From Bacillota bacterium (lineage in GTDB: Bacteria; Bacillota; Sulfobacillia; JAJYWN01), in contig JAJYWN010000064.1 in NCBI GenBank assembly GCA_021791495.1, positions 136,139 through 200,138 of the forward strand: 64,000 nucleotides of DNA, given 5' to 3'. This document shows positions 41,898-46,708 of this stretch, one piece after another. The position numbers and the translations under genes were made by a program. Numbering within the stretch: the stretch's first letter is position 1; every line of letters begins with the position of its first letter. The notes below the pieces were generated by a model. That model did no database searches. It was given only the letters and a program-made list of their open reading frames with translations, and was not told where the DNA came from.

Positions 41898-43154
41898 ATG
41901 GAGACACTGGAAATCGTCAAGAAGCAGGACCCGCAGGTATACGACGCACTAGTCGCCGAACTCGGCCGGCAGCGTGATCACCTTGAGCTGATCGCCTCGG
42001 AGAACTTCGTCAGCCGGGCGGTCCTGGAAGCCCAGGGCACCTGGCTCACTAACAAATACGCCGAGGGCTACCCGGGCAAGCGCTACTACGGCGGTTGCCA
42101 GTACGTCGACGTGGCCGAGAACCTCGCCATCGAACGGGCGAAAGCCCTCTTTAGCGCCGACCACGCCAACGTCCAGCCCCACTCCGGCGCCCAGGCCAAC
42201 ACCGGCGTCTACTTCGCCGTTCTGCGCCCCGGTGACACGGTCCTTGGCATGGACTTGTCCCACGGTGGCCATCTCACCCACGGCCATCCCTTGAATATCT
42301 CCGGTTCCTATTACCGCTTCATCGGTTACGGGGTGGACCGGAACACCGAGACCATCGACTACGAGGCCTTGGAGGAACTGGCGGAGAAAGAGCGGCCGAA
42401 GCTCATCGTGGCCGGCGCCAGCGCCTATCCGCGGGTCATCGACTTCCAGCGCATCGCCCGCACCGCGGAGAAGGTTGGTGCCATGTTCATGGTGGACATG
42501 GCCCACATCGCCGGCCTGGTGGCCACGGGCCTGCACCCCAGCCCAGTGCCCTACGCCGACTTCGTCACCACCACCACCCATAAGACTCTGCGCGGCCCGC
42601 GCGGCGGGATGATTCTCTGCAAGAAGAAGTGGGCGAAGGACATCGACCGCGCCATTTTCCCCGGCATCCAGGGCGGCCCACTTGAGCATATCATCGCCGC
42701 GAAAGCTGTGGCCTTCGGCGAGGCGCTGCAGCCATCCTTCCGGGAATACCAGGCCCAGATCATCAAGAACGCCGCCGTGCTGGCCGACGCCCTGAAGGGA
42801 TTTGGCTTCCGCCTAGTTTCGGGCGGTACCGATAACCACCTGATGCTGGTGGACCTCGGTCCTAAGGGGGCGACGGGCAAGGACGCCGAGAAGGGCCTGG
42901 ACGAAGCGAACATCACGGTGAACAAGAACGCCATACCCTTCGACACCCAGCCACCCATGGTCGCCAGCGGCATCCGGCTCGGCACGCCGGCCGTGACCAC
43001 GCGCGGCATGCGCGAAACCGAGATGCGGAAAATCGCCGACCTTATTAACCGCGCCGTGGAAGGGCTGAAGGAACATGCCGGGTTCGATTCTATCCGCGAA
43101 GAGGTGCTGGCGCTCTGCGCCCAGTTCCCGCTGTATCCCGACCTCCGGTCGTAA
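41898..43154 (+). CDS. glyA: serine hydroxymethyltransferase
   Basis: 418 residues, full length. It converts serine and tetrahydrofolate into glycine and methylene-tetrahydrofolate with PLP. Motifs: [58 protein letters not shown], the PLP Lys in [15 protein letters not shown], and [26 protein letters not shown] lies before ATG 41898. It needs PLP, supplied by the pdxST pair in this window. Confidence 0.98.
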
Positions 43155-43295
43155 CTCATCCAGCTTCCCTCTGAGGACGCGGCATCGACGAGACCCATCC
43201 GAAAGTTGCCTGACGGCGAAGGGTATTTGGGGGTGCCACGAAGAAGAGCAGGTGGGTGAATTTCCCTTTTCTCCCGAGGCCGAGGGGGTGGCCCA

Positions 43296-44489
43296 GTGCT
43301 ACCGGACAACGAACTTGAAGGAATGCTGACCGACCTTGAGTCTGATAGGGTCGAGCGCAAGAGTTCATTTGCCGAGAAGAACAAGGTCAGGCAGGCGATC
43401 TGCGCTTTCGCCAATGATCTTCCGGACTATCGGCTGCCAGGAGTCTTGTTCATTGGTGTTAGTGATAGCGGGGCACCCACGAACTTGGCGATCACGGACG
43501 GGCTTCTCAGAGAGATATCGGATCTCCGACAGGATGGGAACATTCTTCCCTTTCCGACCATGACTGTACAGCGGAGACGACTTCGCGGCTCGGATATCGT
43601 TGTTGTAGAAGTTCAACCCTCGTCTTACCCTCCAGTAAGGGCTGACGGGAGGGTTTGGATTCGCGTCGGGCCGAGGCGAGCAATAGCCACCCCAGACGAG
43701 GAGCGTCGTCTAGTCGAAAAGCGCCGGGCTTTGGATGTCTCGTTTGACCAGCGAGAGGTGCAGGGAGCATCCCTTGATGATCTTGATCTCGAGCGGTTCG
43801 AGAAGGAGTATCTTCCGTTTGCAGTGGCCCCTGAGGTCCTAGAACAGAACAATCGTCCATTGGAACAGAGACTTCAGGCACTTCGTCTGCTAACGCGATC
43901 GGGGATGCCGAACACAGCCTCAATCCTAATAATCGGGAAAGAACCTCGGTCATGGGTCCCCGGGGCATACGTCCAATTCTTGAGAATTGACGGGACCAGA
44001 TTGACCGACCCGATCCTTAACCAGAAGGAGATAGCTGGAACGGTTCTGGATACAATCCGGGTGACAGAAGACATGTTGCGCGCCAACATCTCGACATCCG
44101 CCGACATCGAATCCGGCTTAGTTGAGGAATCCCACCCGGATTACCCTTTTCTGGCCCTGCAGCAGTTGTTCCGAAACGCCGTCATTCACAGGACTTACGA
44201 ATCCACAAACTCGCCCATCCGGATATACTGGTTCTCCAACAGGATCGAGATATATAGTCCGGGCGGTCTTTACGGGATTGTGACTCGCGAGAATTTCGGA
44301 ATCACTGGGGCGACTGACTACCGCAATCCTCTGCTGGCGGAAGCCGCAAAGATTCAGGGCCTCGTACAGAAATTCGGTGTGGGTATTCCCACGTCCCGTA
44401 GGCAATTGGAGATGAACGGCAACCCGAAGCCAGACTTCGTCTTCTCGGAGAACAGTGTCTTGGTGACTATATATCGGAGACCACAATGA
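43296..44489 (+). CDS. AlbA_2 (Schlafen-like) domain protein with Bergerat-type ATPase C-terminus
   Basis: 397 residues from GTG 43296 (GAGGGGGTGG upstream). The N-terminal AlbA_2 domain shows ESDRVERKSSFAEKNKVRQA, FANDLPDYRLPGVLFIGVSD and VWIRVGPRRAIATPDEERRL. The C-terminal half has LQQLFRNAVIHRTYESTNSP, IEIYSPGGLYGIVTREN and KFGVGIPTSRRQLEMNGN, as in RecG-C/HATPase_c_4 proteins. Such proteins act as regulators or defence factors; no transmembrane segment or DNA-binding HTH is visible. Its ATGA overlap with the ParA-like gene shows coupling. Bases look visibly less GC-rich than flanking genes, suggesting transfer. Confidence 0.85.
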   Translation: MLPDNELEGMLTDLESDRVERKSSFAEKNKVRQAICAFANDLPDYRLPGVLFIGVSDSGAPTNLAITDGLLREISDLRQDGNILPFPTMTVQRRRLRGSDIVVVEVQPSSYPPVRADGRVWIRVGPRRAIATPDEERRLVEKRRALDVSFDQREVQGASLDDLDLERFEKEYLPFAVAPEVLEQNNRPLEQRLQALRLLTRSGMPNTASILIIGKEPRSWVPGAYVQFLRIDGTRLTDPILNQKEIAGTVLDTIRVTEDMLRANISTSADIESGLVEESHPDYPFLALQQLFRNAVIHRTYESTNSPIRIYWFSNRIEIYSPGGLYGIVTRENFGITGATDYRNPLLAEAAKIQGLVQKFGVGIPTSRRQLEMNGNPKPDFVFSENSVLVTIYRRPQ

Positions 44490-45475
44490 AGACCATAGCT
44501 TTCTTCAACAACAAGGGCGGCGTGGGCAAAACCTCTCTGGTCTATCATTTGGCCTGGATGTATGCGGATCTGGGGTTGGCGGTTGTTGCGGCCGACCTAG
44601 ACCCCCAGGCTAACCTGACATCAGTATTCCTCGATGAAGACCGCCTTGAAGCGCTGTGGCCGGATGATGGGCACCACCAGACGGTCCTGGGTGCCATCCA
44701 ACCCTTGCTGAAAGGAATTGGCGATGTTAAGAGCCCACATGTGGAGGAAATAGCCGATTCCCTAGGACTAGTTGTTGGCGACCTAGGTCTTTCCACTTTC
44801 GAAGATGAGCTGAGTTCTCAGTGGCCCGATTGCCTGGACGGCAAAGAACGTGCCTTCCGAGTTATCTCCGCATTCTTCCGTCTCCTAAGATTGGCAGGGG
44901 AGGGACGAGGGGCCGATATCGTGCTAATGGACGTAGGTCCCAACCTCGGCGCGATCAACAGAGCAGCCATAATAGCCGCTGATGCCGTTGTGGTTCCGTT
45001 GGCGCCGGATCTGTTCTCCCTACAAGGTCTCAAGAACCTTGGTCCCACTCTTCGCCATTGGAAGAAGGGATGGCGCGAGAGACTTGATAAGAGTCCCGAA
45101 CCCAGTCTGGAATTGCCCAGACTCAAGATGGAGCCAGTCGGATACGTGGTGCAGCAGCATTCGATGCGGATGGACCGTCCGGTCCAAGCCTATGGTCGAT
45201 GGATGTCCAGAATTCCCAACGTGTATCGACAATCCGTACTCGGCACGGCCGCCTCTTCCAGCAAAGTCAGCGTAGAAACCGACACGCATTGTCTGGCCCG
45301 AATCAAACACTACAGAAGTCTCATGCCCATGGCGATGGAAGTCAGAAAGCCCATGTTCCACCTTAAGCCGGCGGATGGGGCTATTGGAGCGCACTCAATG
45401 GCCGTACAAGAATGCCAATCCGACTTCAAGAACCTTGCGATGAAGATAGCAGCCAGGTGTGATTTGCAGGTCTAG
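44486..45475 (+). CDS. ParA/Soj-like ATPase paired with AlbA_2 protein
   Basis: 329 residues. The deviant Walker A is FFNNKGGVGKTSLVYHLAW, A' is VVAADLDPQANLTSVFLD, and the Walker B region is DIVLMDVGPNLGAINRAAII followed by DAVVVPLAPDLFSLQGL. This is the Soj-like ParA group that includes phage- and plasmid-associated ATPases. There is no ParB, CopG or centromere-like iteron array nearby, so partition is unlikely. The coupled AlbA_2 gene upstream and unusual composition suggest a mobile two-gene module, possibly defensive or regulatory. Confidence 0.88.
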   Translation: MKTIAFFNNKGGVGKTSLVYHLAWMYADLGLAVVAADLDPQANLTSVFLDEDRLEALWPDDGHHQTVLGAIQPLLKGIGDVKSPHVEEIADSLGLVVGDLGLSTFEDELSSQWPDCLDGKERAFRVISAFFRLLRLAGEGRGADIVLMDVGPNLGAINRAAIIAADAVVVPLAPDLFSLQGLKNLGPTLRHWKKGWRERLDKSPEPSLELPRLKMEPVGYVVQQHSMRMDRPVQAYGRWMSRIPNVYRQSVLGTAASSSKVSVETDTHCLARIKHYRSLMPMAMEVRKPMFHLKPADGAIGAHSMAVQECQSDFKNLAMKIAARCDLQV

Positions 45476-45520
45476 AAGCTCACCCATGCCACTGTCTGAA
45501 GGAGAGGGCTTCGTTCCGAT

Positions 45521-46708
45521 ATGCCGCAGTCTCTTGAATGCTTGCGCGTCCTCGACTTGAGCCGCGTCCTCGCCGGCCCTTACTGCGCCATGGTCCTGGC
45601 CGACCTGGGTGCCGACGTCATCAAGGTGGAACTGCCCGGCACTGGCGACGACGCCCGCGCCTACGGCCCCTTCATCAAGGGCGAAAGCGCCTACTACATG
45701 AGCATCAACCGCAACAAGCGCGGCATCACCCTGAACCTGAAGCATCCCGAGGGGCGGGCGCTCTTCCTCCGCCTGGCGCGCTGGGCGGACGTGGTCATCG
45801 AGAACTATCGCCCCGGCACCATGGACCGCCTCGGTCTCGGTTACGCCGACCTGGAGAAAGAAAACCCGCGCCTCATCTACGCCGCCGTCTCCGGCTTCGG
45901 CGCCACCGGCCCTTACCGCCACCGCCCCGCCTATGACATCATTGCCCAGGGGATGGGCGGTCTGATGAGCATCACCGGCCATCCCGGCGGGCCGCCGACC
46001 CGCGTCGGCGCCTCGGTGGGCGACATCACCGCCGGCTTGTACACTGCCGTCGGCATCTTGGCGGCCGTGGTGGAGCGGGAGCGGAGCGGGCGCGGCCAGT
46101 TCATCGACGTGTCCATGATGGATTGCCAGGTGTCCATCCTTGAAAACGCCATTTCGCGCTACCTGGCCACCGGCCAAGTTCCGCGGCCCCTCGGTAACCA
46201 CCACCCGTCCATTACGCCCTTCTCGACCTTCAAGACGGCCGACGGCTACATCATCATCGCCGCCGGGAATAACGAGGTTTTCGGGCGCCTTTGCGGTGTC
46301 CTCGGCGTACCGGGGCTGGCGACCGACCCGCGCTTTTCCACCAACCCCGCCCGGACGCAGAACCGCGACGCCCTGGCGGCCGCCCTGGAAACGGCCATGG
46401 CTGGGGCTGGCACGGACCATTGGCTGACGGCGCTGGAGGCCGGCGGCGTTCCGGCGGCGCCCGTGCAGACGGTGGACAAGGTTATCGGCGACCCCCAGGT
46501 GGCGGCGCGCGACATGGTGGCCGAAGTCGACCACCCGGTGGCCGGGCACACCAAGATACCCGGCGTTCCAGTGAAGATGTCCCGGACCCAGGGGCGTGTG
46601 CGCCGTCCGGCGCCGACCCTCGGCCAGCACAATGAAGAGATCCTGACGCAGGTGTTGGGCCTGTCGAAGGCCCAGGTGGACGAGCTCCGTTCCAAAGGAG
46701 CCCTGTAG
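45521..46708 (+). CDS. CaiB/BaiF (family III) CoA-transferase
   Basis: 395 residues. N-terminal RVLDLSRVLAGPYCAMVLAD with LGADVIKVE, then INRNKRGITLNLKHPEG, and the catalytic Asp in RVGASVGDITAGLYTAVGIL. IDVSMMDCQVSILENAI and a C-terminal DHPVAGHTKIPGVPVKMS follow. It moves CoA between acyl or hydroxyacyl acids; the exact substrate (formyl, carnitine, succinyl and others) is not resolvable. The class III aminotransferase lies 70 bases on. Confidence 0.93.
   Translation: MPQSLECLRVLDLSRVLAGPYCAMVLADLGADVIKVELPGTGDDARAYGPFIKGESAYYMSINRNKRGITLNLKHPEGRALFLRLARWADVVIENYRPGTMDRLGLGYADLEKENPRLIYAAVSGFGATGPYRHRPAYDIIAQGMGGLMSITGHPGGPPTRVGASVGDITAGLYTAVGILAAVVERERSGRGQFIDVSMMDCQVSILENAISRYLATGQVPRPLGNHHPSITPFSTFKTADGYIIIAAGNNEVFGRLCGVLGVPGLATDPRFSTNPARTQNRDALAAALETAMAGAGTDHWLTALEAGGVPAAPVQTVDKVIGDPQVAARDMVAEVDHPVAGHTKIPGVPVKMSRTQGRVRRPAPTLGQHNEEILTQVLGLSKAQVDELRSKGAL

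Follow-up and report, generated by a model that had tools for sequence, protein, structure and literature searches.

We have identified a conserved two-gene pair that joins a Schlafen-type protein (gene A) to a ParA-like ATPase (gene B) in a 64,000-nucleotide stretch of a Bacillota bacterium genome (GenBank assembly GCA_021791495.1, contig JAJYWN010000064.1, positions 136,139 to 200,138), hereafter the window. By sequence comparison, the pair is a conserved, horizontally spread unit. We consider it probable, from domain content and genomic distribution, that the pair is a horizontally mobile, promoter-poor effector-regulator cassette of the abortive-infection or toxin-antitoxin type. Copies occur in more than 12 phyla, some of them inside defence operons, and distant relatives of the ParA gene stand beside other classes of toxic enzyme.

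Conservation and spread of the gene pair

The ParA gene was sought in 84,980 species genomes, and the best 80 loci were kept for pair counts. A gene A homologue lies directly upstream on the same strand in 80/80 of these loci, a few of the homologues being truncated or decayed. The exact -4 overlap recurs in 73 of the 77 measurable junctions, a recurrence that is not chance. The phyla represented include Pseudomonadota, Acidobacteriota, Planctomycetota, Nitrospirota, Chloroflexota, Cyanobacteriota, Chlorobiota, Gemmatimonadota, Myxococcota, Actinomycetota and others. Protein distance matrices of genes A and B correlate with r = 0.80, a value reached in 0 of 2000 permutations. Pair-type gene A homologues (E about 1e-100) stand well apart from the ordinary Schlafen-HATPase proteins that these genomes also encode (1e-15 to 1e-26). 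No recurrent family was found among 96 immediate neighbours of the loci left unassigned (about 55), which gave few defence matches; as these neighbours have no common family, a missing third gene was rejected.

In a sample of 321 Gammaproteobacteria genomes searched at E<=1e-40, ParA occurs in 11, gene A in 10, and both, adjacent, in 9. The exceptions are an intact solo ParA (G497), a ParA at 31% identity and a truncated gene A; the single match to gene A without ParA is a fragment. Solo ParA genes also form a clade in Actinomycetes, Streptomyces-like with the genus not confirmed, that carries an insert near residue 64 (L126, L128-L144; larger stretches L146-L151, L154). No Schlafen partner lies near them within the stretch read, and they may be regulators whose effector has been lost or changed. 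Two decayed pairs (L050 and L091) have in-frame stop codons in both genes, and in one Chlorobiaceae contig (L085 and L089) about 18 kb separates two pair copies, with genes resembling type I restriction-modification in the vicinity.

Within the window's own phylum, a ParA match at 1e-30 was found in 2 of 249 genomes: that of the window itself and a second with 38% identity. The closest relatives of the window ParA belong to other phyla, and phyla are intermingled in the ParA tree. Gallionellaceae provide a clean contrast of occupied and empty sites: 4 of the 30 inspected loci carry the pair between gyrA and serC, and in the other 26 gyrA is directly followed by serC. At those occupied junctions that were read, the pair begins a few bases beyond the end of gyrA, with serC as the next gene. 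In gene calls by a simple script, 53 of 58 upstream neighbours and 38 of 47 downstream neighbours within 400 bp run in the same direction as the pair. The order glyA-CoA-transferase seen around the window copy is kept in no relative examined, so no empty site is shown there.

An earlier note on the window, made from its sequence, had proposed a compact mobile cassette inserted between housekeeping genes, and the patchy spread, varied sites and empty gyrA-serC sites bear this out. It had also named three findings that would speak against its proposal. Homologues of the two genes, which might rarely have been neighbours, are adjacent almost always; the position varies and base composition is low in guanine plus cytosine (GC), instead of a fixed position with normal composition; and for work with a distant ParB, no recurrent parB-type partner emerged, and sequenced plasmids and phages gave no match to the window ParA at the limits used.

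The window locus and its two proteins

Features of the locus are listed in Table 1. Gene A encodes 397 amino acids (aa) from a GTG start and gene B 329 aa from an ATG start, and we infer that the two are translationally coupled across the ATGA overlap. The pair lies 141 bp downstream of glyA (which ends at 43154) and 45 bp upstream of a CoA-transferase gene (which starts at 45521), all on the same strand. GC content is 54.1% in gene A and 54.9% in gene B, compared with 63.6 +/- 3.0% for the long open reading frames of the window; GC at third codon positions is 0.61 and 0.60, compared with 0.77 +/- 0.07. The pair thus stands about 9 GC points below its neighbours. Neither parB nor a transposase, integrase or phage gene is apparent next to it in the window, centromere-like repeats were not found at the locus, and the Hma helicase, methyltransferase and ATPase genes (HmaA, HmaB, HmaC) are absent beside this copy. 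A transposon with terminal repeats was rejected for the window copy because no repeats bounding the pair were found. A scan for consensus promoters and terminators around the pair returned signals at chance level only, so expression probably occurs by upstream read-through or from another promoter type. What the earlier note had read at this locus held up throughout: two coupled genes, an AlbA_2 domain fused to an HATPase_c_4-like domain followed by a ParA-like ATPase, lower GC than the flanks, and no parB, centromere repeats or phage genes around the pair.

Table 1. Features of the gene pair and its surroundings, in window coordinates
Feature	Position	Strand	Basis
Gene A, SLFN_AlbA_2 fused to GHKL/Bergerat ATP-binding HATPase_c_4; proposed toxic effector	43296-44489	+	Pfam, AlphaFold2 (AF2), Foldseek
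SLFN_AlbA_2 domain, aa 15-127, containing E15, E20, K22, D57	43338-43676	+	Pfam E 4e-16
HATPase_c_4 (GHKL) domain, aa 306-392	44211-44471	+	Pfam E 4e-17
ATGA stop/start overlap of genes A and B	44486-44489	+	Same -4 junction in homologous pairs
Gene B, ParA-like ATPase; proposed regulator/switch	44486-45475	+	Pfam AAA_31 E 8e-26, AF2, PDB relatives
Deviant Walker A KGGVGKT, signature Lys K10	44513-44533	+	Conservation over 88 rows
Low-GC cassette-bearing interval, glyA to CoA-transferase	43155-45520	.	Flanking gene ends and composition; bounds the interval, not the exact insert ends

The SLFN_AlbA_2 domain of gene A scores 60 bits against a curated cut-off of 25.3. Residue conservation was counted over 88 aligned rows of relatives of the window pair. 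E15 and E20 are kept in 87 of these, the remaining row being gapped there, and D57 in 78. The spacing of these acids is 5/37, versus 5/38 for catalytic residues E205/E210/D248 of rat SLFN13, and their assignment as a catalytic triad comes from spacing and motif, not superposition. The N-box residues Q290, N294 and H298 lie just upstream of the HATPase_c_4 domain, and GHKL residues N294, H298, G323, G327, R343, N344 and G363 are invariant. Pfam found no further domain in gene A: no helix-turn-helix (HTH) and no ParB-type domain, and the protein stops at HATPase_c_4 with no C-terminal winged HTH (wHTH). There is no NCBIfam model for gene A. Its AF2 model has a predicted local distance difference test score (pLDDT) of 92.6, and its best Foldseek match is 3LMM (DIP2311), with weaker resemblance to human SLFN11 (7ZEL/7ZEP) and to histidine-kinase ATPase domains, 2KYY also being among the matches.

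The nucleotide-binding motifs of gene B are complete, with K10 in 86 of the 88 rows, K15 in 84, and D39 and D149 invariant. Its AF2 model has a pLDDT of 92.1. The best PDB relative is 3PG5 (DIP2308; profile E 1e-42, Foldseek E 1e-17), after which the fold is nearest to Soj and McdA by Foldseek. The closest solved structures of both proteins, at about 20-23% identity, are thus from Corynebacterium diphtheriae, and the locus tags of DIP2308 and DIP2311 are three apart; from this numbering the two are probably of one neighbourhood, which suggests that they are a diverged form of the pair described here. No description of the function of either was found in the literature searched.

Defence operons, other toxic enzymes and known systems

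Of the 80 pair copies, 15 lie inside or against a modification-type defence operon. Genes of the hma system, whole or partial, stand beside 11 homologous pairs: six loci are Hma/BREX-related type 1 (L023, L040, L065, L087, L095, L096), and in five the hma genes are partial or broken (L043, L074, L084, L092, L099). The pair is in some cases flanked by hmaA and hmaB; at L065, a compact Hma locus, it shares 4-base overlaps with both of these genes, one on each side. In BREX type 2 operons the pair lies between pglW and pglX (L028) or between pglX and pglY (L080), in DISARM between drmD and drmMI (L038), and one copy is in a DUF1156/PLD-helicase operon (L076). Additional to the 15 is a BREX-1 operon on an IMG/VR virus-classed contig (L102), with the order brxC-pglX-[pair]-pglZ-brxL.

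A ParA profile run against IMG/VR contigs recovered about 55 further distant relatives at 26-38% identity, mostly near full length. Several adjoin integrase or portal-like genes as judged by eye; such virus-classed contigs may be prophages or mis-sorted bacterial DNA, and "phage-borne" is to be read with caution. A partner was defined as a co-directional gene of at least 150 aa starting -60 to +40 bases from the ParA stop codon. All 36 distinct partner proteins found in this way, 17 of them with a -4 overlap, match toxic-effector classes: 19 SIR2_2, 16 RelA_SpoT and one HEPN_RiboL-PSP. The 19 SIR2_2 partners are also ThsA-like by PADLOC and lie directly 3' of ParA, usually with a 4-base overlap (L222, L223, L224, L236-L240, L243, L251, L255-L257, L269, L275-L277, L279, L280). 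The RelA/SpoT-synthetase-like partners, of about 220-315 aa, likewise lie directly 3' of ParA (L241, L244, L246, L247, L254, L258-L262, L264, L266, L268, L270, L274, L278), and the two genes may form a module of toxSAS type with ParA as the partner. The HEPN_RiboL-PSP match, a single case assigned by elimination and of a fourth effector class, is a small gene following a ParA relative at L265:2710-4380.

The Schlafen-, SIR2- and RelA-type ParAs form supported groups in the ParA tree, which means that effector type has for the most part stayed constant within each branch. Near the RelA clade, three short ParAs on long branches join with weak support, and the toxin-paired ParAs taken together may not be separate from all partition ParAs. 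One ParA-SIR2 pair with a -4 overlap is cellular (L156); it was not refound in 356 genomes of its class. A distant ParA relative adjoins genes for a C5 methyltransferase and a restriction enzyme of SacI type (L155:6463-9812), and another ParA adjoins a RelA/SpoT-domain gene (L159). The immunity region of Salmonella phage SE1 contains a ParA-like gene, gp23 (L306:3995-5068), with no annotated effector and a similar gene in ST160. It groups with the HEPN-type ParA, and it is annotated as a partition protein though no partition locus is annotated around it.

The suggestion of the earlier note that the pair is possibly defensive gains support from insertion in Hma, BREX and DISARM operons and from ParA relatives with predicted SIR2 and RelA-type effectors. 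The note had not recognised the pairing as a named system; known named systems were rejected, gene A having no NCBIfam model and PADLOC giving weak partial matches only (pAgo-associated models and the P-loop of PDC-M28B). No description of the Schlafen-ParA pairing, or of the ParA-SIR2 and ParA-RelA variants, was found in the literature searched, subscription journals and preprints being outside its reach, and the ParA-SIR2 module of virus-classed contigs is apparently undescribed.

The nearest described relatives of the pair are the effectors of BREX/BR operons that combine a Schlafen ribonuclease (RNase), a minimal histidine kinase and a wHTH (PMC12839542; COG2865-like). These likewise have SLFN_AlbA_2 and GHKL domains, whereas the window pair is without an HTH, has a near-invariant overlapping ParA partner and also occurs outside BREX; "ParA" as a whole word is absent from the main text of PMC12839542. 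A bacterial Schlafen RNase domain has been reported in anti-phage defence (Taboada et al. 2025, bioRxiv 10.1101/2025.07.24.666596, as cited in PMC12839542). Some Hma/Type-1 BREX-related systems (PADLOC 2021, PMC8565338; PMC12839542) host the pair, as an occasional insert only. The partners of the IMG/VR ParAs share the RelA/SpoT-synthetase class with toxSAS modules (PMC11782079) and the ThsA-like SIR2 class with Thoeris, with the difference that a ParA ATPase takes the place of the small antitoxin or the TIR protein; ParA goes unmentioned in the main text of PMC11782079. Hyperpromiscuous antitoxins (Panacea/HTH; PMC8832971, PMC10440598) likewise pair one regulator family with unrelated toxins, whereas in the present pair a P-loop ParA ATPase would be the regulator; there is no mention of ParA in the main text of PMC10440598.

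Mechanism, alternatives and implications

If the pair is an effector-regulator cassette, gene A would be a Schlafen-type endoribonuclease effector, probably cleaving transfer RNA or ribosomal RNA, and the co-translated ParA would be an ATP-dependent, probably DNA-dependent switch. The ParA would keep the effector inactive, or set it on the nucleoid, until infection alters the ATP or DNA state. We favor restraint on the nucleoid with release upon such a change; alternatively, the ParA may activate the effector upon infection. A broader proposal, which we hold tentatively and as falling short of an even chance, is that a distinct ParA subfamily acts as a general switch for suicide effectors (Schlafen RNase, SIR2 NADase, RelA/SpoT-type synthetase, HEPN RNase) and senses the cellular DNA state by ATP-dependent DNA binding. 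The window pair would then be the chromosomal Schlafen branch, which also enters BREX, Hma and DISARM.

Several observations weigh against a mobile, defensive effector cassette. Most pair copies lie among ordinary, unrelated metabolic genes, not defence islands, and in the gyrA-serC clade the ParA tree suggests that the pair has been vertically kept. None of the 11 Hma loci sampled in Gammaproteobacteria holds the pair, which makes it an insert and not a core part of Hma. Lys at position 22 of the Schlafen domain is replaced by Thr in 44 of the 88 relatives, and N-box position 290 is Gln, instead of the Glu expected there, in 38 and Glu in 50; with these residues variable, catalysis may differ between subgroups. 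Positions 22 (window 43359-43361) and 290 (44163-44165) co-vary, with 37 rows K/Q, 43 T/E, 7 mixed and 1 gapped, and the window gene A is of the K22/Q290 form. For window-type gene A, the missing N-box Glu suggests ATP binding without ordinary hydrolysis; for the T22 form, the missing Lys close to the active site suggests altered catalysis. The K/Q versus T/E split is partly phylogenetic and is a lead only.

A selfish addiction cassette, with gene A as toxin and ParA as antitoxin, would make loss of the pair harmful and have no direct role against phages. The window pair shares with toxin-antitoxin and abortive-infection modules its two co-directional, co-inherited, overlapping genes; ParA is seen solo and gene A without ParA only as a fragment, which, for the effector-regulator reading as for this one, is what a gene A product harmful on its own would lead one to expect, and equally one that is useless without ParA. 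The RelA/SpoT-type genes that pair with ParA relatives also belong to a class known as toxSAS toxins (PMC11782079). We nevertheless find this explanation unlikely, given the repeated nesting in Hma, BREX and DISARM operons, the resemblance of SIR2 partners to ThsA-like defence effectors, and the lack of a window-type ParA match, at the limits used, on sequenced plasmids, where addiction modules are common. Somewhat more doubtful is a regulatory or stress-response pair in which gene A is a nucleic-acid-binding regulator that, with ParA, serves its host operon and not phage defence. The many copies that are co-directional within housekeeping operons, such as gyrA-[pair]-serC a few bases past the upstream stop codon, would suit such a role; the host operons are unrelated, however, presence is patchy with empty sites in the same family, gene A has no HTH detectable by Pfam, and ParA relatives are paired with toxic enzyme classes.

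The remaining two explanations are both highly improbable in our estimation. As a partition or positioning system, gene B would act with gene A as its ParB-like partner, and it does share with ParABS a deviant Walker ATPase (AAA_31, KGGVGKT, D39, D149), complete ParA motifs and a fold near Soj and McdA. A parB gene and a parS/centromere next to parA were not found, gene A contains no ParB-type domain, the chromosomal insertions lie between unrelated genes without a window-type match on plasmids or phages, and ParA relatives have exchanged partners for toxic enzyme classes; a partition system was rejected on the lack of parB, centromere repeats and plasmid or phage matches. As an auxiliary effector of modification-type defence systems, the pair would watch a DNA methyltransferase and kill the cell if the parent system is blocked. 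A methyltransferase gene indeed abuts the pair in the BREX-1, BREX-2, DISARM and DUF1156/PLD-helicase operons and in L065, and a backup role in BREX/BR systems has been described for Schlafen RNases as effectors (PMC12839542). Such operons hold only about 1 in 5 copies, however; with the majority standing by themselves, there is no need to assume that the pair depends on a methyltransferase.

An effector-regulator cassette would have consequences for how such genes are read. Insertion of the pair in BREX, Hma and DISARM shows a route by which defence operons gain extra effectors, and the pair gives a bacterial Schlafen protein with a near-constant partner, convenient for studying how Schlafen RNases stay off. 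"ParA" genes are routinely read as DNA-partitioning genes. If the ParA subfamily is indeed a shared control of unrelated toxic enzymes, a P-loop DNA-binding ATPase would become a candidate infection sensor, and many prophage and chromosomal "partition" annotations would be misread immune or toxin-antitoxin modules.
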